From Ochromonas danica (lineage: Eukaryota; Sar; Chrysophyceae; Chromulinales; Chromulinaceae), in the NCBI GenBank assembly GCA_015146655.1, contig VKHL01000080.1, positions 62,951 to 126,950 on the forward strand: 64,000 nucleotides of DNA. Direction: 5' to 3'. The position numbers were made by a program, and so were the translations under genes. Positions 1,726 through 53,837 of the stretch are shown piece by piece. The notes under the pieces are model-generated. The model was given only the letters and a program-made list of their open reading frames with translations, searched no databases and was not told the origin of the DNA. Position 1 is the stretch's first letter. The number at the start of each line of letters is the position of its first letter.

Positions 1726-1798
1726 ACCCGGTTAGCTCAGTCGGTAGAGCGCCAGCCTTTTAAGCTGGTGGTCGAGGGTTCGAGTCCCTCATCGGGTG
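1726..1798 (+). tRNA. tRNA-Lys (anticodon TTT)
   Basis: The 73 bases fold as a full cloverleaf. The 7-bp acceptor stem is ACCCGGT with ATCGGGT, including one G-T pair, and the discriminator base is G. The D arm is GCTC-AGTCGGTA-GAGC. The anticodon stem CCAGC/GCTGG encloses the loop CTTTTAA, giving anticodon TTT. The T arm GAGGG/CCCTC carries the standard TTCGAGT loop. There is no intron. A run of five T at 1806-1810 is a fitting RNA polymerase III terminator. Confidence 0.97.
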
Positions 1799-13515: not shown

Positions 13516-16500
13516 ATGTTAAATATTTTAAAAGATCAAACCAAACGACGATCTTCAGCACAAGCTAATTATGTCTTACCAGGTGGTATCAAAGTGACTG
13601 TGAAAAAGGAAGATTTCCGTCTTCGTGGTGAAGAGATGATTATTAAACGTCTTTATGTCCAAGATCCTAAAAGTCGAGATCCTGTCTTTGGTTGGGTAGT
13701 AGAAGAAGGGATTCATAATTGTATGGTCTGTGGGGAACCTTTTAGTATGATGCGTTGGTCTCATCATTGTCGATGTTGTGGGAATATTGTCTGTAGTCCA
13801 TGTAGTCCAAATGAAGTGGAAGTTGTCGAATTGAGAAAGTATGGACCTGTTCGTGTTTGTGTTCTATGCTATTGGGGACAGGAAGCTGTTCATGCTTATC
13901 TACGCCAAGAAGAGACTATCCCCGCACAATTCGCGGATGAACGTCAACTTCAATTTTCAGTCTCTTCAGAGAATCCAGAAACTGAAAAGCCTAGTGTGGT
14001 ATCTTTCGAGTCTCCTAGTCCACTCGAGACACCACATCAACGAGAACCTTTACAACCTACTGCCCTCTTTGTCGTGGAATTCCATCGAAAATTGAAGACC
14101 AAGGAGATAGCCTTATTATCTCCTAATGGATCTTCTAGTATTGCTGCAAGTGGACAAAAGATATCGAAAGATAAAACTTCTTATATTAATATCTGTATGC
14201 ATGATGTCATGATGTCCTTGTCGGAAGAGCAAGAGTTTGTTGTTTGTGATGAAGTCTATACCACGAATCAAGTGGTAAATGGCAAGGAGAAAGGAGAGGC
14301 TGATGTTTACCATGCCTTACTTCGTCCTGATCTTATTGAAGCTTACTTCGCTGCAGATAGTATTGATCAGTTTGAAGAGGTATGATAAATCTTGCTCTTT
14401 TGCTCCTGTTTCAGGCCTTATTGTTCTTTTGTTATAGGTCGCTTCTATCATTGTAAATGAAATCCTTGTTAAGTTTCATTTGGTGCTAATTCATAAGCCT
14501 GAGATACTCTCCGCTTTGAAGTACGTTGGAAATGCTGAAGAGATGACTGTACAACTTCCTGTTTGCTTGACTCCAGTCACGTTTATGAGAGGTTTGCATG
14601 GCAATTTCTCAATGGTAGGCTTTCCGATATTGGCCAAACGGTCTGTTAACTTTGTTGTAATTGGTGTGCTTTGTTTCATAGGCAAGTTCAACTGTCAGTG
14701 ATGATGAACGCGGTAGTATTGCTGGTTTACTAGCTCGAAACTCAGCTCGCAGGCAGTCTAGACTTATGTCCAATACTGAAAGCTCTCTTTCCTGTGACTC
14801 AATTGAGCACGAAAATACCTCGATGAAAATTCTTGAAATTCGCAAGACTGATATGAGACCTTCTGTCGGAGAATCTGCCGCGAATAAAACTGAAGCAGAC
14901 AGACTTGCTGCTGAGAAGGCTGAAGCAGATAGAGTGGCTGCTGCAAAAGCCGAAGCAGACAAATTTGCCTCTGAAAAGGCTGAAGCAGATAGAGTGGCTG
15001 CTGCCGAAGCCGAGGCAGACAGACTTGCCGCTGAGAAGGCTGAAGCAGATAGAGTAGCTGCTGCCAAAGCCGAGGCAGACAGACTTGCCGCTGAGAAGGC
15101 TGAAGCAGATAGAGTGGCTGCTGCAAAAGCGGAGGCAGACAGGCTTGCCGCTGAGAAGGCTGAAGCAGATAGAGTAGCTGCTGCCAAAGCCGAGGCAGAC
15201 AGACTTGCCGCTGAGAAGGCTGAAGCAGATAGAGTAGCTGCTGCAAAGGCTGAAGCAGACAGGCTTGCCGCTGAGAAGGCTGAAAGAGATAGGCTTGTTG
15301 CTACGAAGGCTGAGGCAGACAGGCTTGCTGTTGAAAAGGTTAAGTCAGATAGGCTTGCCGCTGAGAAGGCTGAAAGAGATAGGCTTGTTGCTGCGAAGGC
15401 TGAGGCAGACAGGCTTGCTGCTGAAAAGGTGAAAGCAGATGAAGCGGCTGCTGTGAAAGCTGAAGCAGATAGAGTGGCTGCTGCAAAAGTCGAAGCAGAC
15501 AGGCTTGCTGCTGAGAAGCTTGAGGCAGACAGGCTTGCTGCTGAAAAAGTCGAGGCAGACAGACTTGCCGCCGAGAAAGCTGAAGCAGATAAAGTTGCTG
15601 CAGAGAAGGCTGAAGCAGACAGACTCGCAGTTGAAAAGGTTGATGCTGTGCGTGTTGACACCGTAGAAAAGCAAGATGCTCCTTTTCAGTCTGGGGATGG
15701 AGAAAAGGTCGCCTTTCCTGCCATTGATGTGGAAGCCACTCCTTGGTCAGTGTTGAAGACGAAGAAAGCTGATGGCAAGAAGGTCTTTGTGAACGTGCTA
15801 TATCATGCACAGATACCTGCAGGCGAAGAGGAAGAGAGTGGGCGATGGCGAGAGGAATCTTTCCAGGCCTATTTGAAGCAGAACTTCGTGGTATACAGCT
15901 TGAACAAGGCAAAGCATGTGATGCACATCGGTGAGAAGCGAGACACAGCAGACAAAGAAGGAGGGTCGAGTTTGGTGTTGGATGTGACGGTCCATCCCTC
16001 CGTCTTCGTGGCATGCTCTAAAGATGAAGTATTGTGCGACAAGGTAAGAAGGATTAGATAAGCTGGGATTAGTCAAGTGGGTGCAGGTTGAAACTGAGCT
16101 GTGTGTTTGTGTTTGCCATGTTTGCCATGTTTGTTAGTTGTATGCGAAGGTGATCAAGGCAGTGTCTCGCAAGTTGAATGAAGAAGTAGACGGAGAGTAC
16201 AAAATGCCGAAGATCTTGAAGAACTATAAAGGTTCAGTCATTTCTCATCTTGTCATTCCCTCGTTTAACTTCCCGTCGGAGCGAGCGCTTCGAAATTCGA
16301 ACTCACCTTCGAGAAGTTTAACAAGTAGTATTGATGGGGAGGCTGCTAGGACTAACAATGCCATTGCCGTAGTGCGAAAGAGATCTTTTTCACAAGAGAG
16401 CTCTACCTCGACCATTGGTAGACCTCGCACTGAGTATCCTATCAATCCAGAATGGAATGCTGGGTGGAGAGCTTATTTACCAGCCGGTTTTAATGTGGTG

Positions 16501-16830
16501 TTCACCTCAACTACCGTGAAGAGCAATAAGTTTGGCATGAAGCAAACTCGTCAACTTATTCTAACTGATGTTCCCAGCTTGCTTTATATTGATACTGCCA
16601 AGAACATGCTGAAGGGCAGCATTGCCTGGACTAAGACGAATCCTCCCAAGGCTGCCAAAGTGAACAATACCACCTTTACTGTGACTACCACAGGAAGAGT
16701 CTACAAGTTTGAAGATCAAGAACCTCGCAATATTGATATTTGGGTGGAGCGAATAAATGCAATGATGAAAGTTACTCAACGCCGTAGTTTTGTTGCGATC
16801 ACTCCTGCTGGAGGAATGGATGACTTCTGA
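13516..16830 (+). CDS. Paralogue A: FYVE - PIH1-like - coiled-coil repeat - PIH1-like - PDK1-type PH protein
   Basis: Four exons, 13516-14379, 14438-14614, 14682-16043 and 16138-16830, all joined in phase 0; 1031 residues. Domains in order: a FYVE zinc finger at about 60-122 (C-M-V-C, the R-W-S-H-H-C-R-C-C-G signature, C-S-P-C, C-V-L-C), which in known proteins binds PI3P; a PIH1-like domain at about 183-345; an Ala/Glu/Lys coiled coil of 20-residue repeats at about 417-670; a second and better PIH1-like domain at about 692-835; and a PH domain of the PDK1 type at about 901-1015 (R-Q-L-I-L-T-D-x-P-S-L, L-K-G-S-I-A-W). PIH1 domains are known from R2TP and dynein-assembly co-chaperones. I infer a cytosolic, membrane-recruited scaffold. 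PIH1 identity rests on pattern matching. Confidence 0.85.
14890..15650 (+). repeat. 60-bp coding minisatellite in paralogue A
   Basis: About twelve and a half copies of a 60-base unit encode a 20-residue pattern (E-A-D-R-L-A-A-E-K-A repeated twice with variation). The period is an exact multiple of three, so the frame is kept throughout. Copies in the middle are most alike and those at the 3' end have diverged most. Confidence 0.92.
15784..16232 (+). repeat. 449-bp block identical to 24071-24519 (paralogue D)
   Basis: Comparison by eye finds no difference over 449 bases. The block covers most of the second PIH1-like domain, the whole 94-base intron (16044-16137) and the next exon up to the Tyr-Lys-Gly end of the domain. 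The flanks differ: single-base changes before and unrelated sequence after. Identity through an intron points to recent gene conversion or duplication. Confidence 0.93.
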
Positions 16831-17199
16831 GAGCTTTCGTATATTGGAAATTGAGCCCCGAGCATTTGTTTTGTTTTGTTCAGATAGACTATTGTTAAAA
16901 TGATATATTTTGAGATTTCATTCGTTGGCATTGTCATAGTCCAGGTGTGATTGTTGACTGCAGTCTACACTGTAGACTCTAAATTTGGGTGGGGGCTTGA
17001 TCTTCAGATCTCCAAATTCTGGTCTTGAACGGTAGGGGCAAATCTTTGTCCACGCAGACACAACACCGTTCTCTCTCCCACTGCTGCAACACAGAGCAAG
17101 TGAAGTCGGTTGGGGTTGCTGAGAGGAGGAGCTCTTTAGACCGCCATGTGTGTGGGTTAGTCCAACGCCTCTTCATCACAAGCGATAGCAGAGCAAACG
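16831..17199. other. Intergenic region between paralogues A and B
   Basis: No gene seen. Likely 3' UTR of A and promoter of B. Confidence 0.4.
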
Positions 17200-18835
17200 A
17201 TGATCTCTACATTGAAGGAAGCCATAAAGAATCCTCCTGACCAGCCATCCGCTCGCCGGAAGTCTCGGGAGTCTTTCACTGGAGAAGTAGAAATTATCGT
17301 GAGAAAAGAGCGAGTGAAAATCTATGGATGCCCTAGAATGGTGCGGCGTCTGTATGTATGCGATCCTGTCACAATGGAAGCTGGTATAGGGTGGGTGATT
17401 GACAAAGATGCACGGAGCTGTATGGTGTGTGGCAAGCCATTCGGTTACATGCGATGGTCCCATCATTGCAGATGCTGTGGGAACTTAGTTTGCAACGCCT
17501 GTAGTCCTGACAAGGTAGAGGTTGTGGAGCTGCAGAAACTTGGTCCTGTGCGTGTCTGTGTTTTGTGTTATTGGGGTCAGCACCCTGTGCATGCCAGTCA
17601 CAACTGGAATAGTGAAGATAGCCGTCATGGTTCGATGGCTGACATTGAAGCAGAAGATGACTTTAGTATCAAGACAAGCAAGTTTAAAGATGTGGAATTA
17701 ATGTCTAAGAAAGATAGTTTTGTTCCACCAAATCCGACACTATCGCCTCCTGAAACGGAGCATTTGATCCCTTCGCCGTTGTTTGTGGTGGAGTTCTATC
17801 GCAAGCTCAACTATGAGGAGTCTGGTGTAAATACTGATAATGCTCCAAAGACCAGAATTGTTTATGTGAACTTCTGTATGCACGATGCGATGCTGACCTT
17901 GCCTGAAGAACAAGAGTTCGTGGTTTGTGATGAGGTCTACGCGATGAACGAGACAGTTAATGGCAAGGAGGAAGAAGCGGAGGTCTATCATATCTTGCTT
18001 CGTCCTGATGTTGTGGGAGTTTACTTCGCTGCTGATATCATTGAGCAGTTTGAAGAGGTAATAGATCTGGTTGTTGTGTCTAACTGTGTTGAGCCTGATC
18101 TTTCTTGCTATGCTGTGTCAGGTTGCGTCCTTAATTGTGCATGAAGTCATCTTCAAGTTTCGCTTGAAGGTGGCCAATGAGCCTCGAATTATCTCCATGA
18201 TCAACTATAAAGGCGTAGCTGAAGAAATGCCAGTGCAACTTCCAGCATGTCTAACTCCATTCTCAACGGCTATGGGAATGTATGGCCATCGCATCCATTT
18301 GGTGAACTTTGGTAGCGAATCAGATAGTTTTCGTGACGAAAATTGCCACCACCAATGTGGATCTTCGAAGTCCGTGGATGAGGGAGATAACTTTGTTCTT
18401 GAATGTGGTGAGGGAGAAGGTTCCGGTCTTGAAGACGAGTCGAAAGAACCGGAGATTCTAAGAACCAAAACTCCTCAAACTATCAAATATCCCATTAATC
18501 TGGAGTGGAATGTTGCATGGAAGGCTTATTTGCCTGTTGGATCAAATGTGGTGTTCACCTCAACGATAATCAAGAAGAATAAGATCGGCTTAAAGCTAAC
18601 TCGTCAGCTCATACTAACTGATGCTCCCTCGTTAATCTATGTTGATACGGTAAAGAATAAGATGAAAGGCAGTATTGCCTGGTCGAAGATGAATCCTCCC
18701 AAAGCAGCTAAAGTAAGTAGCACTACCTTTTCTGTGACTACCACAGGAAGAGTCTACAAGTTCGAAGATCAAGAATCGCACAATGTTGATATTTGGGTGG
18801 AGCGAATAAATGCAACGATGAACAACAAAATATAG
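17200..18835 (+). CDS. Paralogue B: FYVE - PIH1-like - PDK1-type PH protein (short form)
   Basis: Two exons, 17200-18057 and 18122-18835, joined in phase 0; 523 residues. The FYVE finger is complete (W-V-I-D before the first C-M-V-C, R-W-S-H-H-C-R-C-C-G, C-N-A-C, C-V-L-C). The PIH1-like domain ends in I-N-Y-K-G, and the intron falls at the same point as in A. The coiled-coil repeat and second PIH1-like domain of A and D are absent. A linker with an acidic stretch of about 50 residues leads into the PH domain at about 409-515 (R-Q-L-I-L-T-D-A-P-S-L, M-K-G-S-I-A-W). This is either the ancestral short form or a deletion derivative. The start is MISTLKE, shared with C and D. A downstream AATAAA is at 18976-18981. 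Confidence 0.85.
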
Positions 18836-19298
18836 ACTTCTGCTTAATGAAGTCGTACCAGTGCCTAATAGAAAAGATTCTATTCAAAATAAGATCGTAG
18901 TTATCCAATCCTGTGCGTGTTTTTTGCAGCGTTGATCTTATCAAATACCATAGACAAGATATCATGTATTACTAGAATAAATGGCATGAAACAAATTAGT
19001 TTTGATCAACGAGGCCCATCCTATTGTATTTTTTGTCTAAAATATGTTAATATAATTGATTGTAACTTTTGACTTGTACTTGGTTGGTAGGTTGTATTGT
19101 ATTGCTACTGGGCACACAAATCCCATTCCAGCCATTCCGGCATCATTTGCAAAAGTTACAATTACATCAATTGTATCCATAGTTATCGACATTACACTTT
19201 GTTTTGCATGGGGAGCAAGGGGATTCCATGGAATTTTCCAGCTTTCCACGCACGAATCTCCAATGAGCAACAGAGGATAAGAGATCGATCACAGAGAG
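18836..19298. other. Intergenic region between paralogues B and C
   Basis: The first part resembles the region after paralogue C: both have a diverged GAAGTCGTACCAGTGCC-like stretch (C has GTAGTCG) and both have AATTGATTG followed by GTTGACT-like sequence. This supports tandem duplication of gene plus 3' flank. No other gene seen. Confidence 0.5.
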
Positions 19299-19812
19299 AC
19301 CAGACATTGTCAGCTCCTTTTGCCACTTCTTCCTCTATTCTTCTTGTTCCTCTTCATGATCCTTCCTTGACGAACCACCATAAACTAAGAAGACCCTATG
19401 ATCTCTACACTCAAAGAGCAGATTAAAAACCCTCCCCAAAACGAATCCTCTCGCATGGGATGTCGGGAATCAGTGACTGGGGAGGTACAAGTCATGGTGC
19501 GCAAGGAGAAAGTGAAATTTCGTGGTATCTTGAGAACTGTCAGAAGAGTGTATGTATGTGATCCCATCACTCAGGAGTCAGGTGTTGGGTGGGTGATTGA
19601 TGAGGATGCACTTGGATGTATGGTGTGTGGTGAGCCTTTTGGACTTTTTCGATGGCCTCATCATTGCAGATGCTGTGGAAATTTGGTTTGCAACCCTTGT
19701 AGTCCTGATGAAGTGGAGGTAGTGGAGCTGGAGAAACTTGGCTTTGTGCGTGTCTGTGTATTGTGTTATTGGGGTCAGCACCCTGTGCATGCCAACTATC
19801 ACATGGAGGGAC
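19299..19812 (+). repeat. 514-bp block identical to 21075-21588 (paralogues C and D)
   Basis: I see no difference over 514 bases. The block starts 99 bases upstream of the start codon and ends just after the FYVE domain. Sequence on both sides diverges abruptly. The shared upstream part means C and D probably have the same proximal promoter. Confidence 0.93.
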
Positions 19813-20595
19813 GTAGCGGATCTATCTCTAAGGATGAAGGTGATGGGAATGAAGATTTCTTACACATGAAGGCAAGTATTGGTTCGGCTTCGCTTCCTCT
19901 TCTCTCCCCTCCTCTTTCCAGGATGACATCTCGTTCCAAATCTTATACCCGAACATCTACCAATGAGCTACTCCTGGAAAGACGACATTCTGAGGTGGAA
20001 CTAACGCCTTTTAAACAAGGTGGTTCTTTCAAATCCAGTGAGCCATCATCATCTCCACCTCAAACAGAGCGTTTGATTCCCACTCCACTGTTTGTGGTGG
20101 AGTTCTATCGCAAGCTCAACTATGATGAATCGGGTGGAAAGACTCTTCACGCTCCGAAATCAAGACTCGTGTATGTGAATTTATGCATGCATGATTCAAT
20201 GATGACTTTATCTGAAGAACAAGAGTTTGTGGTTTGTGATGAGGTGTACACTGAAGCTCTGCATGGCAAGGAGGAAGAAGCAGAGATCTATCACGCATTA
20301 CTTCGTCCCGATCTAATAGATGCAGATTACGATAATATTCATCGGCTCGAAGAGGTATAGCCATCTTTACATGTTTTTGTTATCCTCGTTAAATTTGGTG
20401 TTGGTGTTGGTTTTGTAAATACAGGTTGCTTTAGTGATCATCAATGAACTGACAAGCAAGTTCCATCTCCGTGTGGCCAAGAAGTTTCGAGTCATTACTG
20501 AAAGGAAATATGTGGGCACAATCGGTTGTGTGGTGACGATCCCCAAAGAAAGAGGTTATCATTCCATGCGCGGCCAATCCTGGTGGAGTGAATAA
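19398..20595 (+). CDS. Paralogue C: FYVE - PIH1-like protein, PH domain lost
   Basis: Two exons, 19398-20354 and 20425-20595, phase 0; 375 residues. The FYVE finger ([10 protein letters not shown]) is identical to that of D. A Ser-rich linker and a PIH1-like domain follow, with the family's conserved intron at E-E|V. Exon 2 matches paralogue D up to about residue 367. It then runs into W-W-S-E and a stop. That last stretch is homologous at the DNA level to the end of the PH domain in B (TGGTGGAG-GAATAAATGCAACGA), but is read in another frame. C therefore lost the repeat, the second PIH1-like domain and the PH domain by deletion. The remaining frame is intact, so a short protein may still be made. 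It may also be an early pseudogene. Confidence 0.75.
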
Positions 20596-21074
20596 ATGCA
20601 ACGAGGAAATAAATCGCTGCAAGTCTGGTTGATGTAGTCGTACCAGTGCCAAATCGAAAATACTCCATGCTAATCATCCTATCCTGTGCGAGCGTTTTGC
20701 AATTTTGTGTTTATCAATGGGACCATGGCTTTTATTTACAGTTTATTTATATAGTAAATTGATTTTATGTTCTACATTATATTAAATAATTGATTGCAGC
20801 TGTTGACTGTTAGGTTTGTCTCCTATTCATATTTGTCGATATTTGTCGCTACGTTTGCTCACAGAGTTGATCAAACCAAATAGACGCTGAATTTACTGTC
20901 AGGAAAAGTGTGGAATCCAAAGTGGAATCACAGTTTCCACGCATTTCCACCCAGTAAAGAATGCGTATGCGCATTAACTTAAAGAGGTTGTCACGGGGCA
21001 GTTGTGGATCCAAACCACGAAGAGGTTCGGCTGAACGAAAGACAGAAGACAAGACGAGAAGATTCTTTGTCGAT
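20596..21074. other. Intergenic region between paralogues C and D
   Basis: Starts with the decayed remains of the PH-domain end and 3' UTR, homologous to B's 3' end. The rest holds no gene that I can see. Confidence 0.5.
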
Positions 21075-21588
21075 ACCAGACATTGTCAGCTCCTTTTGCC
21101 ACTTCTTCCTCTATTCTTCTTGTTCCTCTTCATGATCCTTCCTTGACGAACCACCATAAACTAAGAAGACCCTATGATCTCTACACTCAAAGAGCAGATT
21201 AAAAACCCTCCCCAAAACGAATCCTCTCGCATGGGATGTCGGGAATCAGTGACTGGGGAGGTACAAGTCATGGTGCGCAAGGAGAAAGTGAAATTTCGTG
21301 GTATCTTGAGAACTGTCAGAAGAGTGTATGTATGTGATCCCATCACTCAGGAGTCAGGTGTTGGGTGGGTGATTGATGAGGATGCACTTGGATGTATGGT
21401 GTGTGGTGAGCCTTTTGGACTTTTTCGATGGCCTCATCATTGCAGATGCTGTGGAAATTTGGTTTGCAACCCTTGTAGTCCTGATGAAGTGGAGGTAGTG
21501 GAGCTGGAGAAACTTGGCTTTGTGCGTGTCTGTGTATTGTGTTATTGGGGTCAGCACCCTGTGCATGCCAACTATCACATGGAGGGAC
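21075..21588 (+). repeat. 514-bp block identical to 19299-19812
   Basis: Partner of the block in paralogue C, offset by 1776 bases. It includes the 99 bases before the start codon of D and its FYVE domain. Confidence 0.93.
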
Positions 21589-24500
21589 ATAGTCGCAGTG
21601 GATCGATGTCGGATAACGAAGGTGATGGGAATGAACAAGTCTTGCACTTAAAAGCAAGTGAACTACTTCTGGAAAGACGACCTTCTGAGGTGGAACTAAC
21701 GCCTCATAAGCAAGGTGGTTCTTCCAAATCCAGTGAACCATCATCATCTCCACCTCAAACAGAGCGCTTGATTCCCACCCCACTGTTTGTGGTGGAGTTC
21801 TATCGCAAGCTCAACTATGATGAATCGGGTGGAAAGACTCTTCACGCTCCGAAATCAAGTCTTGTATATGTGAACGTATGCATGCATGATGCAATGTTGG
21901 CTTTGTCTGTAGAGCAAGAGTTTGTGGTTTGTGATGAGGTGTATACAACAAATGAAGCTCTGCATGGCAAGGAGGAAGAAGCGGAGATCTATCACGCATT
22001 ACTTCGTCCCGATCTAATAGATGCAGATTACGAAGATAATATGGATCAACTTGAAGAGGTATGGCTATTATAATGAGTGTGTTACATGTCTTTGTCTTCC
22101 TCGTTAAATTTGGTGTTGGTGTTGGTTTTGTAAATACAGGTTGCTTTAGTGATCATCAATGAACTGACAAGCAAGTTCCATCTCCGTGTGGCCAAGAAGT
22201 TTCGAGTCGTTACTGAAAGGAAATATGTGGGCACAATCGGTTGTGTGGTGACGATCCCTAAAGAAAGAGACCATCGCAACGTGCGCAGCCAATCTTTTGC
22301 GAAAGCCGATGCTGAGGTATGACTAACGTTTGCGTTCATGGAACCTTCTGACCTAATTTGATAAAAACAAACACACTAGATTGCTATGGAAATGAGTCCT
22401 GCCAGTTCATCAGCCAATCAACAAAGCAAACACAAGAAGACCGTTCAACAAAAGAAAGCAGAAGACAGATTACTAGCTCAACATTACCAAGCAGCAGAAA
22501 GATTGAAATTAAAAGAAATGGAACAAAAAATTAAACAACAACAAAAGGCAGAGGCGGATAGACTGGAGGCCGAGCGGTTGGCTGCCGAGAAAGCCGAGGC
22601 GGAGAGACTGGAGGCCGAGCGGTTGGCTGCCGAGAAAGCCGAGGCGGAGAGACTGGAGGCCGAGAGGTTGGCTGCCGAGAAAGCCGAGGCGGAGAGACTG
22701 GAGGCCGAGAGGTTGGCTGCCGAGAAAGCCGAGGCGGAGAGACTGGAGGCCGAGCGGTTGGCTGCCGAGAAAGCCGAGGCGGAGAGACTGGAGGCCGAGA
22801 GGTTGGCTGCCGAGAAAGCCGAGGCGGAGAGACTGGAGGCCGAGAGGTTGGCTGCCGAGAAAGCCGAGGCGGAGAGACTGGAGGCCGAGCGGTTGGCTGC
22901 CGAGAAAGCCGAGGCGGAGAGACTGGAGGCCGAGAGGTTGGCTGCCGAGAAAGCCGAGGCGGAGAGACTGGAGGCCGAGNNNNNNNNNNAGAAAGCCGAG
23001 GCGGAGAGACTGGAGGCCGAGAGGTTGGCTGCCGAGAAAGCCGAGGCGGAGAGACTGGAGGCCGAGAGGTTGGCTTCTACCGGACTGAGAGTATCTACCA
23101 GTTCTGATGCTTCAGGTTAGTTTTCTTTTGTTATTTCCGGGTTTTGTTTAATGGGATTGTTTTGCAGATTCTAAGCCATCGTTTTTGCAATCGATTCGTT
23201 ATCCTCAGAATGATGAGCGATTGAAGAGAATGCAAGCTGCAGCAGAGCGAAGGCGGCTACTACTTGAGAAAATTGCGGCTGATGAGGAACGAGAAAGAAA
23301 ACGTCGTGAAGCTGAGGAGGAATTGCGTCAAGTTTCTGCGCGAAAGCTGTCTGCAGCTGAAGAGAGGGAGAGAATTCGTGTAGCAGCTGAGAGAAAGAAG
23401 GCTGAAGAGGATGGTGACCTTGAATTTGAAAGACGTGCTGAGGAGGCACGCAAGAGATCGGTCCACTTTCAAGGAGAGGAAGAGAAAAAGAAATTTCTTG
23501 GTGCCATTCGTCGAAAAAGCATGGAGATTCGTGAGAAAGTTGCTTCTCGTGTAGAAAGAGATCGTCAGCGTTCAATTGCAGAGGAAGAAGCAAAGAAGAT
23601 TCGTGCCGAAGTGGAAGCTAAAGCCCTCAGATCGGCACAGCGAATGCTTGCAGAACGTGCTAGCTACATTGCAGCACAAGAAGCACAAGGTGCTGGTAGA
23701 CAACATACGGTATCCAATGAGCTCGATGATTCTTTCTTCTCCGCGCCAAGTGACTTGGATGACTCCATGGTAGAACCTGAGCAACCAATAAGACAGTCTG
23801 TGGAAGGTGATATTGCTGAAGCTTCCATAGTTGAAGAATCACACGAAAGCAAGCCAACACCATCTAACATCAACAGCCTATTTCCATCAGTGGATCAACC
23901 TGCAGAAACTCAAGAGGAAGTTCAAGAAGTATCGAATAAGAGTGATATTGTTGTCGCTTCAATAGATACCACCAGCATCGAAGAGGATCACTCCCTCTCC
24001 TTTCCTGCCATTGATGTAGAAGCCACTGCTTGGTCAGTGTTAAAGACGAAGAAAGCTGATGGAAAGAAGATCTTTGTGAACGTGCTATATCATGCACAGA
24101 TACCTGCAGGCGAAGAGGAAGAGAGTGGGCGATGGCGAGAGGAATCTTTCCAGGCCTATTTGAAGCAGAACTTCGTGGTATACAGCTTGAACAAGGCAAA
24201 GCATGTGATGCACATCGGTGAGAAGCGAGACACAGCAGACAAAGAAGGAGGGTCGAGTTTGGTGTTGGATGTGACGGTCCATCCCTCCGTCTTCGTGGCA
24301 TGCTCTAAAGATGAAGTATTGTGCGACAAGGTAAGAAGGATTAGATAAGCTGGGATTAGTCAAGTGGGTGCAGGTTGAAACTGAGCTGTGTGTTTGTGTT
24401 TGCCATGTTTGCCATGTTTGTTAGTTGTATGCGAAGGTGATCAAGGCAGTGTCTCGCAAGTTGAATGAAGAAGTAGACGGAGAGTACAAAATGCCGAAGA

Positions 24501-25255
24501 TCTTGAAGAACTATAAAGGAAATGAAGTTCTCCCTCTTCGTGTCCCAATCTTCCGCTTCATCAAAGATGAAACACCTGCTGCGGTATCATCCTCGGAACT
24601 TCCTGCTTCCACAGTGATTGCTGACGAAGCTCCAGTGAAGGGTCCCGTGCAGGTGGTAGAGTCTGCACCAACGACTGTTCCTCCTGTTCCTTCGACTCCT
24701 CCCCGTCAACCCTCTGTGGCATCTCCTTCTCCCGTCTCCACTTTGTCTTCCTCATCCAAGCCAGCAGCTAGTCGGACAGATTTTTCAATCAATGCGGAAT
24801 GGAACAACCGATGGAAGGCCTACCTACCCACAGGCTACAATGTGGTCTACACATCCTCGACTGCCAAGAGAAATCGTTTGGGTATGAAGATCGTTCGACA
24901 ACTCATCTTGACAGACCAGCCGAGTCTAATTTATGTGGATGTTTCCAAGAATGTCTTGAAGGGAACCATCGTGTGGACAAAGACCAGTCTGCCTGAAGCT
25001 ACCAAGGTAAGCAGCCATCTACCTTTCGCTGTCTCGAGTATGGAACTAACTGGATTCTTGGGGTGATTGTATGTTTAGGTCAATGGCAATACCTTCACAG
25101 TGACTACACCATCCCGTGTGTACAAGTTTGAAGATCAGCAAGGAAATAATGCTGACGAATGGGTAAAGCGTATCAATGCCATGGCCAAGTTGACTGCCCG
25201 AAGAAGTTTTGTGGCCGTACCTCTGTCAAGCTCAGGAATGTTGGAAGACTTCTGA
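21174..25255 (+). CDS. Paralogue D: FYVE - PIH1-like - coiled-coil repeat - PIH1-like - PDK1-type PH protein
   Basis: Six exons: 21174-22058, 22140-22316, 22380-23115, 23168-24330, 24425-25006 and 25079-25255. About 1239 residues as assembled; a run of ten N at 22980-22989 makes the length uncertain. The FYVE finger is as in C. PIH1-like domain 1 is followed by a 15-residue coiled-coil repeat, then a non-repetitive charged coiled coil (about 600-780, rich in Arg, Glu and Ala), an acidic linker, PIH1-like domain 2 (nearly identical to A), a Pro/Ser/Thr-rich linker and the PH domain. It differs from A in two introns: one between repeat and second coiled coil (23116-23167) and one inside the PH domain (25007-25078). 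Role as for A: probably a phosphoinositide-binding scaffold linked to co-chaperone function. Confidence 0.85.
22551..23074 (+). repeat. 45-bp coding minisatellite in paralogue D
   Basis: About twelve near-identical copies of a 45-base unit encode [15 protein letters not shown]. The copies differ almost only at one C/A base in the Arg codon (CGG/AGG), which suggests very recent expansion. The array is broken by the N run, so the true copy number is unknown. Confidence 0.93.
22980..22989. other. Assembly gap of ten N inside the minisatellite
   Basis: Ten N lie where an intact 45-base unit would need thirteen bases. The frame happens to be kept but one codon is missing. This is probably a placeholder gap in a collapsed repeat, not a real 3-base deletion. 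Confidence 0.95.
24071..24519 (+). repeat. 449-bp block identical to 15784-16232
   Basis: Partner of the block in paralogue A, offset by 8287 bases, including an identical 94-base intron at 24331-24424. Confidence 0.93.
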
Positions 25256-25739
25256 ACTGTCTGTCTCTCCACACTTCATATTGCTTTTCTTAGACTACAG
25301 TAGAACACATGGTCCCTGTTTGGATAGAACCAGGAATGAAATGCGCATCAAAAGTATCGTTTACCAACTTTAGCTTATCTCTGATGTAAGCTATGGTGTG
25401 ACCTAAGCATAGCCTTAAATTATCATAGCTGAAGCATAGCATTACACACACCTCATGATGTGTCAGAATTACTTCTTGTTGGTCAACTAGCATCATAAGA
25501 ATGAAGTATGAAATCTAGGCATACCAGTAATTCCTCTAGCCACTTTCAATTACGAACATTAGCTAGACTGGACTGGGACGTATTCCCTTGGAGACTGTTT
25601 TTCTTCGGAACCCGTTCCTTGTGTGAAACGCGTTTCTGTCATAGTATTGACCGATATTCGTTTTCGTATTTTGGTATATTCGCTTTTCGTATTTCGATGT
25701 TCGCAGTTGAATGAAGGGCATAACAGAGAAAGTAGAAGT
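25256..25739. other. Intergenic region between paralogue D and PIGB
   Basis: No gene seen. It holds the 3' UTR of D and the presumed promoter of PIGB. Confidence 0.4.
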
Positions 25740-26151
25740 ATGATATCACAGAAGTTTTGGATTCTCATTTTCCTTATATTAAGTGTTCGCCTAGTAGAGT
25801 GGTTCTTTCTAAATACTAGTTATCATCCTGACGAGTATTTCCAACATATTGAACCTGTTGCCAAGGCAGTCTATGGCCTGTCGTGGCCGTCCATCCCGTG
25901 AGACCTGCTGCCCCTCTGACTTGCTTGAGTGTGACTGTCTGCCTGTCTGTCTGTCTGACCACTGTAGATGACTGACTGACTGACTGACTGACTGACTGAC
26001 TGACTGACTGACTGTATTAGAGAAGCTTGGGAGTGGCAAAGTAACTATCGCATTCGCAGTTTCCTCCCTCTACTGCCTGCCATTACGACAGCCAAGCTGC
26101 TGAACTTTATGGTAATACTACTACTACTATATATAGTGTATAGTGAGTGAA

Positions 26152-26185
<34 letters not shown>

Positions 26186-27001
26186 TCTAGGGTGTAGATG
26201 ACCTTCCTGTGGTCTGGATCTGTCGACTTCTTCAACTAGCCTTAGTCGTCATAGCGGATGTACACTACTTCCTCTTGGCTGAGTTAGTCCCTCCCCCACA
26301 CACACATACAGATACATCCTCTGATCTCAACTCTATGCTACAGGCTGTTAAGTGGGGAAGAAGCTGCTATCTTCGCTAGTATAGTTAGTCTGTGCTCGTG
26401 GTCAGGAGGGTATATGCTACCACGCACTTTGATCAACTCTATGGAGTGTTGTCTACTCGTCATTGCTGTCTATTACCTCTTTAAAGGAGCTAAACGGCAT
26501 GCTTCTATGCAACAGGAAGGTAGTCTGCTGACAGCCATGTGGTGGATCAGCCTTACCGTCTATTGTCGTCCCACTGCCGCTCTCTTCTTGGTGAGACCTT
26601 GCCAGCACCTTCTCTTGCTTGATCTTGTCTAAACTAGTGATTGTGTTTATGCTAGATACCTCTCTTGATCATCTTATGGAGCGCGAAGCTGATCGAGCTG
26701 ACTAGATCTCGTCTATGGGCGAAGGTGAGGAAATACCATGAAGTCCTCTCTCACCACTTGGTTAGCTCATACTATGCATGGGTTATCAGTGGCTTGCTAT
26801 TGGTACAATAACCTTGCTAGGTGGCTTTCTTCTGGACAGCTATTTCTATGATGAACCAACTCTTCCCTTGTGGAACTTCTTTAAAGTCAATTGGTTGGAA
26901 AACAAAGCCATTATGTTTGGAATCAAACCATGGCATTTCTATTTCATTGAAGTGAGTATTACCATATAATCTTGTAGACCATGCTTACACTGACATTGTT
27001 A

Positions 27002-27051
<50 letters not shown>

Positions 27052-28063
27052 TAGGGTCTACCCATGATGCTTGGTGCCTACTTGCCCTTCTTGGCTGTAG
27101 CTTGGTATCGATTAGGTAGTCGCTTCTCCATCGCCACGAAGTAAGAATTATATTCTCTGTCCATGTACATTCTTCCTACCAGGCTAATCCAGAGGATGGT
27201 GTGTGAAAGAGCGTTAGTGTGGGCCTCATTGAGTTACATCGTTCTGCTTAGCCTGGCATCAAGTCATAAAGAACATCGCTTCCTCCTGCCTGTCACACCT
27301 TTCCTCCTCTTACCTCTCGCATTATCCGCTATGGTTGAAGATCGTAAAATGATTCGATCAGGTTCTTCTTGGTCGTTACATAACCTCTTGCTATCCTTGG
27401 CAATGACTTTACATCTCTTGGTCACACTTTTCCTGCTTCGTTATCATCAAGTAAGTGTCGAGCTAACCAGACTATCTATTATAACTGGTTGATAGTCACT
27501 TTGTTCCTTCGTTTAGTCTGGTGGAGAAGGGATTATGAGTCGATTACGAGGTCATATTCTTCAATCCCCTCGTCATCACAACGTGGTAGTGGATGTCATT
27601 CTCGCTGCTCCGTGCTACTCTCTGCCAGCTTATGGCCATCTCTACACCTCTGCACATCCGGTGCGCATTCATGCTATGCCTTGTCCTACCTCTCCGTAAG
27701 TCATCCACGGCATCGCATCATCAGCTGTGCTCATTCTCTTGCATTATCTGTCTTCTTCGTAGAGAAGGATCAGACTTGCCGTTGAAACAAGACAAGAAGG
27801 CCGTGGCAGCGTTTGTTCAAAGTGTAATGTCCCATCGGGACTCTTCCTGGAAAGGCCCAGCTCATGTAGTCACCTATGACACCTACACTTCCTCTCTCTG
27901 GCCGACTTTGCGTACCTATGGACTGGCTGTGAAGGACGACATCACGCATGCTTACTTCCGCTACGACTACGACGACCCGCACCCCAAGCGCCGTGCCTTG
28001 CTATTCATAGAGCAGTCCATAGAAGAAGAGGGGGTAGGGGACAGTGATAAGGTAGAAGACTAA
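25740..28063 (+). CDS. PIGB: GPI mannosyltransferase III (PIG-B/GPI10 family, GT22)
   Basis: Ten exons: 25740-25897, 26021-26111, 26191-26282, 26344-26590, 26656-26724, 26790-26951, 27055-27140, 27183-27450, 27517-27695 and 27763-28063; 550 residues, close to the usual length of about 550. PIG-B is an ER multi-pass enzyme that transfers the third mannose from dolichol-phosphate-mannose to the GPI-anchor precursor. Support: the GT22 motif H-P-D-E-Y-F-Q after the first membrane segment, W-E-W then I-R-S-F-L-P, R-T-L-I-N-S-M-E, D-S-Y-F-Y, K-P-W-H-F-Y-F (W-H-W-Y-F in relatives), H-K-E-H-R-F-L-L-P, and a C-terminal A-P-C-Y-S-L-P-A-Y-G-H domain typical of PIG-B. The latter argues against ALG9, ALG12 or PIG-Z. 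Several introns carry microsatellites next to the acceptor. Confidence 0.9.
25969..26014. repeat. TGAC microsatellite in PIGB intron 1
   Basis: About eleven uninterrupted copies of TGAC, ending six bases before the 3' splice site. Confidence 0.95.
26152..26185. repeat. GAT microsatellite in PIGB intron 2
   Basis: About eleven GAT units that run up to the acceptor (GTCTAG), leaving almost no polypyrimidine tract. Confidence 0.9.
27004..27050. repeat. GT microsatellite in PIGB intron 6
   Basis: About 23 GT units immediately before the acceptor ATAG at 27051-27054. Confidence 0.95.
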
Positions 28064-30844: not shown

Positions 30845-33800
30845 TTAAGGATGAAGCATCTGCTCTTGAATAGCTCTCTCCAGCAATTCCTCGAAACTCT
30901 TCTGCTGGCTGACCTTGTTGTGTGAGTCACTACCTCCTTCACCTCTCTCTCCTTTACGAACAGAGATGGTAAACACTGCCTTGTTACTCTTCTGCTGTCC
31001 AATAGCCCCACTACTACTACTACTACTACTACCACTGCTTCCTCCTTTACCACCACTTGGAGTAGGAGGAGGAGGAGGAGGAGTGACAACGAATAACTCA
31101 TTACAAACCTGAGAGAGGAAGTAACGATTATGTGATACGACTACAATGCCTCCCATGAAGTCTTGACATGCCTTGATCAACGCTTCGATGGATTCCATGG
31201 AAAGGTGATTGGTGGGCTCGTCCAAGAAGAGCAAGTGCGGTCTTAACACACAAACAGCTGCGAAGGATAAACGCGCTTTTTGTCCACCAGATAAGGATCC
31301 AATCTTTTGTAAGGCAAGATTACCCGATAAACCAAATGATCCTAAATGAGCTCGTAACTCTAACTCTGTGTATTTGAACAGACCTGCTACACCTCCTCCT
31401 CCTCCTCCCGCTACACTACCACTGCTACCGTTAGCAGCTAGTAGACTATCCTCTACAGCATTGCTTGGCTGCTGCTGTCGATTGTATTGCTGGACAAGCA
31501 TTGTCATATAGTCCATAGGAGTGCTCCATAAGAAGTCCGACAAGATGTCAATCTGATGCTGTGCTACCACTCCAATGCGAAGATTGTGATGCTTCCAGAT
31601 ATGACCCGCGACGAGTGACAAGCACCTATTATTGTCATTGCCATTACTGCAGTCTCTGGGTCCTGTTGACTTGCTTGGCTCGGTCGTCGTCGCATGGGTT
31701 AGACCAGGTACAGCCACAGCGCCGAGGCTGTGGGCATAGGCTAGAGTGTACAGCAGAGAGCTCTTGCCCTTACCATTTCTACCGATAATACCCACACGAG
31801 ACTGCATGGTCAGCTGTAAGGTGATATTATCTAATAGTGGTACATAGCCTGCAGCTGGTTGTGAGGAGGAGGAGGTGGTGGTAGTAGATCTAACCCCACC
31901 ACTAGTCACACGATTCTTAGCTTGTTGGCTATTAGAACCTGTCAGTCCAGTTAGTTCCTGCGGCGATAGATAAGCCAAGGTGCACTTCTCCATAGTCAAC
32001 ACAGGAGCCTGTACATTGCTTAATCGTAAGGCTGCGGCATCTACAGCAGGGAATTTGAATTTGAATTGTCTGAGATCACTTTCTCCACCTGCTTCGATGA
32101 TCTCGGGCATGTGAATTGCACTTTCATCCTATACCACACACAGAAACAGATAGTCACTACCACCACTAGCAACAGAGAGAAGGCGAGCATGTGGTAGTCA
32201 GTCTAATGCTTACCATTTTCGAGAGGGAGAAGAGTTTAAACTTATGACCATCAATACCTCTTGTAAAAGCTGCTCGTTCTAACTTCTTCTGCTTCGTACG
32301 CACAGTGTTATCATCACCACGTGCTTTGGCTTGTTCGATAGTCTTCTGGATATGTCCTTCTTTACGAGAGCGTGCATCCAGTGCATTCTGTTTACGAGCT
32401 AGCAGTTCCTCTTTGTTCATGAGGAAGTCCTCATATCCTCCAGGGAAGTAGTTTAGTTGATAGTTCTTCATTTCAATGATGTCAGTTGTGATAGCATTGA
32501 GGAAGGATCGATCGTGTGAGACGAGTAAGATGATAATGTCTGCTTCACTGAGGAAGGATTGCAGCCAAGCGATGGATGGAAGATCCACTACCAAGAAACA
32601 GACAGACAGATAGATGGATAGATAGACAGATAGATAGACAGATGGTCGTTAGTAACCCCATACATACAGCAACAACAGCAACAGAGAGAGTGTGTGTTAG
32701 TGTGTTAGTGAGAGAGAGTGTATGTGTGTATTTGTGTGTATGTATGAGTGGCAGTGTGTATGTGTGTGTGCGTGTTAGTGTGTGATTGTATATATATGTG
32801 TGTGTGCATGTATGAGTGGTAGTGTGTTAGTGTGTATGAGTGTGTGTACAGAGGAGGGAAGGTAGTACAGTACAGTATACAGAAGGTAAGGACTTACAGT
32901 GGTTGGTTGGTTCATCAAGAAGCAAGACATCGATCTGATGAAGATTAATAAGAACTTGTGCTAGCGCAGCTCTCATTCTCCATCCACCACTCAATGCACT
33001 GAGACGTAATGAGAGGCGCTTCGGTGGTTTAGACAGTCCCAGGCCATCGAGGATGGAAGTGACTCGACTGCCTAGAGCCTCGATGTCTGCACGGGTTAGA
33101 CCAGCAGAGGTAGAGGTAGAGGTAGAGGGTAGCGCTCTCTGTGCTAGTAGCTGTTTTTCTTCTTCCACTTCAACTTCCACTTTCTCCATCTCTTCGACTA
33201 GATCACACAGTTGCTGTGCTAGCTCGCTTAGCTTCTCGTTGTCCTCTTCTTTCTATAGCAGAGATACACACACACACACACACACAAGCACACACACAAG
33301 CACGCACATACAGACACAAGCACACGGACACACACAGGATTAGGATGTGTTACATTATAGTATAGTATGGTGTAGTACTGTATGATGCTATGCTGTATAT
33401 GTTATACACTACGTTACACTACCGTACCTCCATGAGGTCTTCGAGCTCAGCTTCAACCTTCTTCAACTCTTCATATCTTCCTAACGGAGAAGCAAGAGCC
33501 GTTTTGGCTTTAAGGATATAGTCCATCACTGTCATATCCTCTGCTAAAGGTAGTTCTTGTTGGACATAACCAAAGCGGAAGTGCAAGGGAATGCCTGGGA
33601 GAGTCTGCTTGGCTAGACGACGTAGTAAGGTTGACTTACCCACTCCATTCTCTCCGACGAGTCCATAGCGATGGCCATGCACGAGTTTGAGAGAGGTTCG
33701 TTGAAGTAGCTCTCGGCCACAGAAGGCCAAGGTGACGCCCTCCACGGAGATGTCCTGCGTCAGCCCTGTGATGCGTTGGACACCACGGCCACCACGTGTT

Positions 33801-33943
33801 CGACCACCCCACACACCTTTCCCTTCCAGCACTTCTTGCCAGGCAGTGGTCCAATCGTCATTCTCTTCAGTGGATTGGAGATCAAATCCCCATCGAGCAA
33901 TGCTCTCTTTTGAAGTGGCTGTCTTCTCGTTAAATGACGTCAT
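30845..33943 (-). CDS. ABCF-family ATPase (GCN20/ABCF3-like), two nucleotide-binding domains
   Basis: Four exons: 33943-33428, 33252-32898, 32587-32214 and 32128-30845; 842 residues. ABCF proteins have no membrane part and act on ribosomes or translation control. First domain: Walker A G-E-N-G-V-G-K-S-T (starts at residue 97), signature L-S-G-G-W-R-M-R, Walker B L-L-L-D-E-P-T-N-H-L-D and the switch S-H-D-R-S-F-L. An Arg/Lys-rich linker follows. Second domain: G-R-N-G-K-G-K-S-S, L-S-G-G-Q-K-A-R-L-S, L-F-L-D-E-P-T-N-H-L-S and S-H-N-R-Y-F-L. Two unusual low-complexity inserts are present in the second half: Ser/Thr and Gly runs near the domain, and P/G/S-rich sequence close to the C-terminus. 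The ATG at 33943 was taken; the frame extends three more codons only to a GTG. Confidence 0.88.
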
Positions 33944-34477
33944 TTTCTTCACTCTTGGATGGAGTCAATTAAATGATAATAATAATAATGACTCAACTGC
34001 TCAGTCAAATGATGTGATACAGCAGCTATTTTGGATTTCATCACGTGTTGTCAATGTTGTGTTGAGGATGAAAAGTCGTAATAATAGACTTTTAACTCAT
34101 ACTCTTCTCCTCCCAGACTTCCCGCCCTCTCGTGGGGAAAGGTGGGAGGAATTAACTGCGGTTAGCTACATACACAGTCTACAGTTAGAGTAGCAGAGTG
34201 CATGGTAAAGGAGGCAGCATATGATGATACTAACTAGCATAATAAACACAGACAGAAAAGCAAACACACAACAACCAGACAGCCTACAGTTAGGTAAACT
34301 ACATCAGACTATAGTTAGGGTCAGGGGTAGTTATACTTGGGGTTTGAGTTAGAGGTATTCAGCCAGTTAAACTACACTAGACTACAAATGATCAGTTAGG
34401 TTTAGTTAGTGAGTTAGAGTGTATTGTTAGGGTGTATTGTTAGGGTGTAGGCTGTAGTTAGTCAGTCAGTTAAACTA
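33944..34477. other. Upstream region of ABCF and 3' flank of the LHC gene
   Basis: Contains CCCGCCCTCTCG near 34130 and, at 34315-34460, a loose cluster of GTTAGGGT/AGTTAGG words. No gene recognised. Confidence 0.4.
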
Positions 34478-35575
34478 TTAAAATGTTGAAGAAGACAACT
34501 TGGTCTGTACGGTCTGGAAGATCTCTCCAATCCCTCCAAACGCTCCAAAGGGTATTGCTAAGATACCTAGAAGACCTGCTAGCACCTGTCCACCATACAG
34601 AGTGCTGGCCACAGGCTGTCCTGTGAGATACTCCTGCCCTAGCATTCCCACGAAGCCCACCATAGCCAAGCGACCATGATTCAGCTCCACCTCAGTGATC
34701 CACTTGCGATCTTCTTCTTCATCGGGCATCAGCTTGAGAGGGTCGAAGTGAAGGTCCCCCACCTCGTAGTCCTCCTTGAGATTGCCCAGGCCAATGTTGC
34801 TCACGTATTGATGCTTGTAGTCCGAGGCCTTCCATCGCGTCCAGTTCTTGAGAAAACTCTTCACCTCAACCAGCATGAAGGAGGTAACAAGTAGGTAGTA
34901 GTCAACAGGCCATGTGGCCAGGCCATCCATGGCCCAGGCCTGGTCGGCCAGGCGGCACAAGGCGCTGTCCTGGCAGGAGAGGTCCCGCAGCTGCTCCATG
35001 TGAGTCATGGCCATGCCTCCAATGTGGGGATAGAGAGGGTGCCAGGCTTCTTGTAGAAGGTATCCCACACAGGCTAGCATGGCAATACGACCATGTTTGA
35101 CTTCTGACTCGCGATACTTCCTCACCACTGACCTCTGCACCTGAGAGAAGCAGAAAGGGTCCCAATTACCCAGTGGCAAGGTGTTTCCAGGGAGTCCATA
35201 GCAAAAGAAATCGTCAGGATAGCCACTGTCGAGGTATCGATAAGGTGGCAGAGTGTGTGGCAACTGGTACCACGCCAGCCACTCCACGGTGGAGTTGCGG
35301 AAGAGAGTCCAGGGGTGGTCATAGAGGACCTTCTTGCGGGGGAACCAGTAGAAGAAGGAGTAGGTATTGTAGAAGATGAGGCTGATGGGGTTCTTGGTGA
35401 GTAGACGGATTAGTGGATGGTGGGGGTCGACTTGCTTCATGGGGTTCTTAATCCCTTGCAAGAAAGAAGGTTGTCGAGAGAAGTGATGATGATGATGGTC
35501 ATGAGAGGATTGGAAGCAAGTATTGGGTGAGAAGTATGTGATAAGTAGCAGTAGTAGCAATAAGATCAGTAACAT
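34478..35575 (-). CDS. Chlorophyll a/b/c-binding light-harvesting family protein, plastid-targeted
   Basis: Single exon, 365 residues. The start M-L-L-I-L-L-L-L-L-L-L-I-T is a signal peptide, followed by N-T-C-F-Q-S. A Phe at the junction is the hallmark of bipartite plastid targeting in algae with secondary red plastids. The core has the N-terminal G-N-W-D-P-F-C-F-S motif, helix B with E-S-E-V-K-H-G-R-I-A-M (starts residue 156) and helix C with E-V-E-L-N-H-G-R-L-A-M (starts residue 295). These are the paired Glu/His/Arg chlorophyll ligands. The protein is much longer than usual fucoxanthin-chlorophyll proteins (about 200 residues): it has about 90 extra residues between targeting sequence and core and a wide spacer between the two helices. 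It may be a stress-type or photosystem I-type relative rather than a major antenna. Confidence 0.87.
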   Translation of the reverse strand: MLLILLLLLLLITYFSPNTCFQSSHDHHHHHFSRQPSFLQGIKNPMKQVDPHHPLIRLLTKNPISLIFYNTYSFFYWFPRKKVLYDHPWTLFRNSTVEWLAWYQLPHTLPPYRYLDSGYPDDFFCYGLPGNTLPLGNWDPFCFSQVQRSVVRKYRESEVKHGRIAMLACVGYLLQEAWHPLYPHIGGMAMTHMEQLRDLSCQDSALCRLADQAWAMDGLATWPVDYYLLVTSFMLVEVKSFLKNWTRWKASDYKHQYVSNIGLGNLKEDYEVGDLHFDPLKLMPDEEEDRKWITEVELNHGRLAMVGFVGMLGQEYLTGQPVASTLYGGQVLAGLLGILAIPFGAFGGIGEIFQTVQTKLSSSTF

Positions 35576-35833
35576 TGTCCAGCACTATTTGTTGCCATTT
35601 TCTCATCACAGCAAAGGCAGCAGAGATTATTACTACCCGCGCAATAGTAGTTTATTATTGTTATCCCGCGTAATAGTTATTGTCCCCTCCCGCGCAGATG
35701 CTATTCTGCCAGATTTGGCAGTCTGGGCTTGGGTGGCAGTGCTTGCCTCCCGCCATTCATCTTCTTGACCTTTTGCCTTTCTCAGTAATTAGTGATCTAC
35801 TTGCTGGAACACAGTGGCATTTGTCAGAAGAAC
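35576..35833. promoter_or_regulatory. Shared divergent promoter of LHC and midasin, with CCCGCG motifs
   Basis: 258 bases between two start codons. CCCGCG occurs three times (35636, 35665, 35689), twice followed by (C/T)AATAGT. A related CCCGCC is near 35752. CCCGCG/CCCGCC is the core of E2F-type sites; whether it is used here is inference. Confidence 0.5.
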
Positions 35834-53800: not shown

Positions 53801-53837
53801 CGAGCTCGTCAAGCTGCAGCTCTCAGCCAGCAGCTAA
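35834..53837 (+). CDS. MDN1: Midasin (MDN1/REA1), giant AAA+ ATPase of 60S ribosome maturation
   Basis: Four exons: 35834-35852, 35984-36099, 36177-51654 and 51721-53837; about 5909 residues, longer than human (about 5600) and yeast (4910). Midasin is a dynein-like ring ATPase that strips assembly factors such as Ytm1 and Rsa4 from pre-60S particles in the nucleolus and nucleoplasm. Six Walker A motifs follow in order: G-T-A-G-C-G-K-S (residue 244), G-E-T-G-N-G-K-T (604), G-P-T-S-I-G-K-T (1034), G-E-T-G-C-G-K-T (1361), G-P-P-G-V-G-K-T (1810), and G-S-C-G-S-G-K-R (2173, with Arg in place of Thr/Ser). A long helical linker follows. An Asp/Glu/Gln-rich region runs from about 4900 to 5560, and a C-terminal MIDAS domain has D-D-S-R-S (5700-5704), the metal-coordinating DxSxS. 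Exon 1 codes only six codons and one base. Confidence 0.97.

Follow-up and report, generated by a model that had tools for sequence, protein, structure and literature searches.

Four tandem FYVE-finger genes in Ochromonas danica, two of which also carry a PIH1 and a PDK1-type PH domain

We analysed a 64,000-nucleotide (nt) stretch of the Ochromonas danica genome (contig VKHL01000080.1, positions 62,951 to 126,950, assembly GCA_015146655.1), referred to below as the window. It contains a tandem array of four paralogous genes, A to D, all of which encode an N-terminal FYVE finger. Three of the proteins end in a PDK1-type PH domain, and in the two long forms, A and D, a charged helical repeat and a PIH1 domain lie between these ends. 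Based on this domain content, we tentatively suggest that the A-D proteins are membrane-recruited cytosolic scaffolds and that the long forms A and D may read clients with acidic phosphoserine motifs via PIH1. The pairing of FYVE with PH is ordinary and the addition of PIH1 is the new part; we regard the architecture as known domains newly combined, not as a novel kind of system.

The initial annotation had placed four adjacent same-strand paralogues at 13516-25255. Our spliced models agree with it exactly in coordinates, on the + strand, with sound reading frames and introns. Introns were placed by hand and checked by script, with 21201-21899 (in the first exon of D) read in translation and the rest of the array as DNA. 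All 10 introns are GT-AG, preserve the frame and measure 52-94 nt each. A tblastn search of the window with the A-D proteins as queries and low-complexity filtering returned 44 matches, every one of them within the array. The Pfam scan covered B and C whole and A and D each as two end pieces at E values up to 10, exon 3 of A and exon 4 of D at E up to 1, and the first codons of exon 3 of D (22380-23115); these are the scanned stretches referred to below.

The domains at the two ends are the most firmly identified. FYVE (PF01363) is found in all four genes at 56.9-60.2 bits (cut-off 27.8; E 2e-16 to 2e-15), and the ligand cysteines are invariant in the alignment of A-D, so that the profile match and the eight zinc-ligand cysteines occur together, as had been read from motifs. 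The PH_3 family (PF14593) is found in A, B and D at 70.6, 72.7 and 83.8 bits, respectively (cut-off 25; E 1e-19 to 1e-23), and is absent from C, which was scanned as a whole protein and ends before this domain. The motif-based assignment to the PDK1 type is thereby upheld; the number of genes carrying it had been given as two and is three. The best match of the PH domain of A in the PDB is the solved PDK1 PH domain (5e-8). In PDK1 itself, R474A abrogates membrane localisation and K465E lacks binding to phosphatidylinositol 3,4,5-trisphosphate (PtdInsP3) (PMC2845649). The equivalent of R474 is Arg in A, B and D (3/3), which would be compatible with lipid binding at this end. The resemblance to PDK1 is confined to this domain: no kinase domain was found in the scanned stretches of A-D, and PH is preceded by the first PIH1-like domain in B and by PIH1 in the two long forms.

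A second PIH1-like domain in two of the paralogues, also proposed from motifs, turned out to be a true PIH1 domain. PF08190 matches at this position with 55.6 bits in A and 52.1 bits in D (cut-off 24; E 6e-15 and 7e-14), and the exon pieces alone still reach 39.0 bits (A exon 3) and 36.2 bits (D exon 4). In mouse PIH1D1, K57, K64 and K113 hold the phosphoserine and the flanking acids and K166 contributes through its backbone NH; K57 and K64 form the core of the phosphoserine site, and their change from Lys to Glu leaves no or very weak binding (PMC4058522). We used the positions of chain 4ckt as residue numbers, and K57, K64, A112, K113, K153, K166, R168 and L171 match the letters of that chain. 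In the alignment, both A and D keep the equivalents of K57 and K64, together with those of K166 and K153. They thus resemble PIH1D1 and yeast Pih1 of R2TP in the PIH-N domain and its core lysines, and differ from them in being fused to FYVE, PH and a long helix.

The initial annotation had also reported a repeat coiled coil in two paralogues. The repeats are present in A and D, but the coiled coil was not borne out. The spacing of large hydrophobic residues is mainly 10 in A and alternates between 5 and 10 in D, and the overall periodicity is 10-20 residues without heptads. Residues of the set LIVMF occupy 11/72 best-phase a/d positions in A, 6/41 in the repeat of D before its assembly gap and 10/46 in the exon-4 stretch of D, with longest heptad runs of 2, 1 and 2, respectively; the first two counts are no better than those of shuffled sequences (means 13.5 for A and 8.1 for D before the gap). 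By contrast with the shuffles, net i,i+4 ion pairs are in large excess, with 40 in A (shuffle mean 0.0, standard deviation (sd) 7.4), 29 in D before the gap (-2.0, sd 6.4) and 21 in the exon-4 stretch of D (0.0, sd 6.1). Since heptads are lacking and opposite charges are paired at i,i+4, the repeats are better read as a single charged alpha-helix than as a coiled coil, with the reservation that Ala-based coils would escape the hydrophobic set used.

Taken together, the N-terminal FYVE and the C-terminal PDK1-type PH would seat the scaffold on phosphoinositide-bearing membranes, and in A and D the long, stiff, charged helix would keep these two ends apart. The PIH1 domain beside PH may then capture clients with acidic phosphoserine motifs of the CK2 type. 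The short forms, B (which lacks helix and PIH1) and C (which also lacks PH), could act as membrane-binding partners or regulators that do not capture clients. What the sequence shows is the set and order of the domains, the exons, the retained lysines of the phosphopeptide site and the constraint on the domains; binding to membranes and lipids, capture of phospho-clients, stiffness of the helix and any division of labour are inferred from these. The idea that the array proteins bind themselves found no support in the motif [DE][ST][DE][DE], which has 0 occurrences in the four proteins; a single SDDE lies at residue 353 of A.

Several observations weigh against this explanation. Motifs of FYVE domains that bind phosphatidylinositol 3-phosphate (PI3P) are WxxD, R(R/K)HHCR and RVC (PMC8233823). 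RVC is present in 4/4 genes and WxxD in B, C and D, with WxxE in A; the basic motif is atypical in 4/4: A and B have RWSHHCR, C and D have RWPHHCR. The full PI3P-binding set is therefore found in none of the four, and the replacement of the first two canonical residues (R[RK] by W[SP]) makes PI3P binding doubtful. At the other end, the K465 equivalent is K in B and R in D, and in A it is S, which leaves this domain without a basic residue there; the charge at the R472 equivalent is absent from A, B and D. Both the PDK1 numbering on this alignment and the role of R472 are presumed. Lipid binding at the FYVE and PH ends is accordingly plausible, not secure. In the PIH1 domains of A and D, Glu stands at the position of mouse K113 and is directly preceded by a Lys. 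Finally, pattern matches numbered 19 for the PIH1-PH part of A and 45 for the FYVE alignment in viral contigs, and 61 for the latter in GTDB species contigs; 0 of these were confirmed by tblastn as relatives. Both sets are non-eukaryotic, and the absence of relatives there says nothing about stramenopiles.

The identity of the first-position domain bears on how many of the paralogues join PIH1 to lipid modules. About 125 residues after FYVE are common to all four proteins, as had been noted, and this shared domain had been called PIH1-like; that identity has weak and uneven profile and pairwise support. None of the four (0/4) matches PF08190 at this position at E up to 10, and a PDB search with a profile of the domain (E up to 10) gives 3 matches, none of them PIH1D1. 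With hhalign, the first domain scores 22.9 over 97 columns (E 0.0043, probability 8%) against a combined profile of the second PIH1 and mouse PIH1D1. The match is in register from the VYVN strand through the final YxG, 0/200 column shuffles score as high (the best is 18.96), and a decoy PH profile scores 6.0. Against the two-sequence alignment of the second PIH1 alone or PIH1D1 alone, the scores are 16.4 and 16.0, within the shuffle range of the combined test.

Pairwise comparison with mouse PIH1D1 divides the paralogues. Local Z scores are 6.2 in D (reached by 0/1000 shuffles) and 4.8 in C (1/1000), compared with 0.7 in B (223/1000) and 0.1 in A (440/1000), while global alignment gives 4.6 (D), 4.5 (C), 2.7 (B) and 1.9 (A). 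C and D are near-copies, so that their scores count as one observation, not two. Against the second PIH1 of A, local Z scores of the first domain are 1.5-3.3 (reached by 14-99/1000 shuffles), and the best match of B is out of register. An AlphaFold model of the contiguous exon-1 part, made from the four paralogues, has a predicted local distance difference test (pLDDT) score of 59.9. With this low-confidence model, Foldseek found nothing at E <= 0.001, and the best 50 of 471 matches include BolA- and OsmC-like folds and no PIH1. Modelling of the exon part of the second-position PIH1 of A and D, intended as a positive control, failed as well (pLDDT 40.3; no PIH1D1 among the best 50 of 1350 matches), and for this reason we do not use the structural negative against the first domain being PIH1.

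That this domain is instead an unrelated, lineage-specific alpha/beta domain, so that only A and D join PIH1 to lipid modules, is quite possible in view of the Pfam and PDB results, the low hhalign probability and the near-shuffle scores of A and B. It has to contend with an in-register hhalign score above every shuffle and with the Z scores of D and C. We consider a diverged PIH1 domain at this position probable but unproven. In the hhalign register the K64 equivalent is Leu in D, and the first domain is therefore unlikely to bind phosphopeptides in the manner of PIH1D1.

The main functional rival to the scaffold is a two-membrane tether, in which the FYVE and PH ends bind different compartments, the helix spans the gap in the way of EEA1 or of a contact-site tether, and PIH1 is accessory. 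In A and D, the helix does separate two end domains of lipid-binding families, and, at a helix rise of 0.15 nm per residue, the 255 repeat residues would extend about 38 nm if fully helical. A and D also share with EEA1-type proteins a zinc-ligand FYVE with RVC, combined in one protein with a long helical rod. They differ from the EEA1 layout in that FYVE is N-terminal and its basic motif atypical, the rod lacks heptads and a PH domain stands at the opposite end. However, tethering could not be a role common to the four, given that B lacks the helix while having both ends and that C has a single end; moreover, lipid binding by FYVE and PH is itself a prediction from sequence, and no further Pfam domain was found above cut-off in the scanned stretches of A-D. 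We consider a tether unlikely. Below cut-off, matches to Herpes_V23, DUF7602, FKBP_C, Ribosomal_S10, PH_13, OLD-like TOPRIM, DUF6760 and HC2 (the last on the repeat) were dismissed as chance or composition; FYVE_2 and PH_2 also appear there, as expected of relatives of FYVE and PH_3.

The array shows traces of recent exchange between its members. A 300-nt stretch around the start is identical between C (19296-19595) and D (21072-21371), and their FYVE coding stretches show 0 differences over 106 codons. At its other end, C carries a remnant of the B-type PH coding sequence (Table 1), and a second flank match pairs 20758-20808 with 19023-19074. With its D-identical start and B-like end, C resembles a B-type gene that has a D-type front and has had PH deleted. 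A and D share a 524-nt block containing PIH1 (15709-16232 and 23996-24519) that is 98.9% identical, its 94-nt intron matching at 94/94 positions. Elsewhere the two genes are strongly diverged, with synonymous sites at saturation in both the PH (62.0 of 72) and the FYVE domains (53.2 of 67). Judged from this contrast, segmental gene conversion or a recent exchange of the PIH1 block is likely, and mis-assembly across the 524 nt is the less likely alternative.

The same comparison bears on whether the array consists mostly of decayed or redundant copies, with one or two genes that matter and C a pseudogene. The missing PH and short B-like tail of C and the identity of the C and D FYVE stretches would fit such decay, but all four genes have open frames with proper introns, and the first PIH1-like domain of C and D has a ratio of nonsynonymous to synonymous substitution rates (dN/dS) of 0.26. 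Across the array, dN/dS is 0.13-0.26 in 8/16 domain pairs, 7 pairs are saturated at synonymous sites and 1 (C-D FYVE) is without differences. By these ratios the array domains are under constraint, and we find general decay improbable.

The initial annotation had proposed either a membrane-recruited co-chaperone or an assembly scaffold. Least probable, and in our view very unlikely, is the former, an R2TP-like or dynein-assembly co-chaperone tethered to membranes: A and D do have a true PIH1 domain with its core phosphopeptide lysines, but neither a CS domain nor a TPR or RPAP3-type match was found in the scanned stretches of A-D (in exon 3 of D, the first codons), and in yeast Pih1 it is the CS domain that mediates recruitment to Hsp90 (PMC4058522). 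The scaffold is preferred for this reason and would remain the best guess.

Among known FYVE proteins, PH has a high frequency of association with FYVE (PMC2837644) and is one of five domains that join it in almost all taxonomic groups (PMC8233823). Phytophthora sojae has 272 FYVE proteins (PMC8233823, PMC2837644). Its PsFP1 and PsFP2 resemble A-D in combining FYVE with a second phosphoinositide module, which in their case is PX, and the passages of PMC8233823 consulted here mention no PIH1 in them. The string 'pih1' has 0 occurrences in the main text of PMC2837644. A literature search restricted to open-licence papers revealed no FYVE-PIH1 fusion protein by title or abstract opening, and among such papers none joins 'PIH domain' with 'FYVE' or 'PIH1 domain' with 'diatom'.

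Table 1. Genes and features of the array (positions in the window; aa, amino acids)
Feature	Position	Strand	Length	Details
Gene A	13516-16830	+	1031 aa	4 exons: 13516-14379, 14438-14614, 14682-16043, 16138-16830; FYVE - PIH1-like 1 - charged helix repeat - PIH1 - PH_3
FYVE of A	13693-13875	+		residues 60-120; RWSHHCR, WxxE, RVC
PIH1-like 1 of A	14056-14379	+		exon-1 part; exon-2 part from 14438; not recognised by Pfam
Repeat of A	14892-15643	+		60-nt period, 20 aa, rich in Ala, Glu, Lys and Arg
PIH1 of A	15711-16043	+		exon-3 part; continues 16138-16233
PH of A	16465-16773	+		Pfam stretch; DNA 16435-16769 80% identical to that of B
Gene B	17200-18835	+	523 aa	2 exons: 17200-18057, 18122-18835; FYVE - PIH1-like 1 - PH_3; without repeat and second PIH1
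PIH1-like 1 of B	17770-18057	+		exon-1 part
Gene C	19398-20595	+	375 aa	2 exons: 19398-20354, 20425-20595; FYVE - PIH1-like 1; without PH
PIH1-like 1 of C	20079-20354	+		exon-1 part
Remnant in C	20582-20660	+		matches end of PH coding sequence of B and 3' flank (18796-18875), 77.8%
Gene D	21174-25255	+	1239 aa, count including a 10-N assembly gap (22980-22989) within the repeat	6 exons: 21174-22058, 22140-22316, 22380-23115, 23168-24330, 24425-25006, 25079-25255; FYVE - PIH1-like 1 - charged helix repeat - second helical stretch - PIH1 - PH_3
PIH1-like 1 of D	21774-22058	+		exon-1 part
Repeat of D	22551-23075	+		45-nt period, 15 aa; contains the N gap
PIH1 of D	23998-24330	+		exon-4 part; continues 24425-24520
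PH of D	24806-25192	+		Pfam stretch; intron 25007-25078 splits the domain, absent from A and B

The array lies among unrelated genes. Just upstream is an exon of a rhomboid family intramembrane protease (PF01694; 12475-12825, + strand). Directly downstream, three open frames at 25563-27489 (+) match the Alg9/PIG-B-like mannosyltransferase family (PF03901), 2/3 of them above cut-off, and a perfect (TGAC)n run occupies 25969-26014 between two of these frames. Exons of an ABC transporter-family ATPase (ABC_tran, ABC_tran_Xtn), ABC-F-like by arrangement, are found at 30845-33964 on the - strand, and a tRNA-Lys gene (anticodon ttt) at 1726-1798 (+).

At 34478-35584 (-), a chlorophyll a/b-binding family protein (PF00504, 1.7e-42) points to a photosynthetic alga and not to an oomycete. 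Among the best 60 of 574 PDB relatives of this protein, two multi-unit LHCI chains of 9vfj come first, followed by VCPI-1 and fucoxanthin chlorophyll a/c proteins; VCPI is of the eustigmatophyte type. Along with the short introns, these relatives fit a photosynthetic stramenopile or a different alga with chlorophyll c. A midasin gene (MDN1-type AAA) extends over 36153-53837 (+) and includes a single giant exon of some 5170 codons. We rejected its apparent in-frame stop at 51666-51668 as a recoding signal, given that a GTAAAT 5' splice-like site just before it fits an ordinary intron. In the open frame that follows this apparent stop, VWA matches weakly (25.0 bits, below its cut-off of 27).

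PIH1 domains are the client-reading part of Hsp90 co-chaperones. It is possible, although we hold it with some doubt, that in this array PIH1 has moved out of the Hsp90/R2TP setting into a membrane-addressed phosphoserine reader, and that the tandem family rearranges its modules through deletions and segmental conversion. Should the PIH1-bearing architecture prove common in stramenopile proteomes, it would represent ordinary domain shuffling. The PIH1 domain of A and D gives a directly testable prediction, namely the binding of DpSDD-type peptides. Were the predicted binding of lipids and phosphopeptides to be borne out, a phospho-reader would have shifted from cytosolic assembly machinery to membranes.

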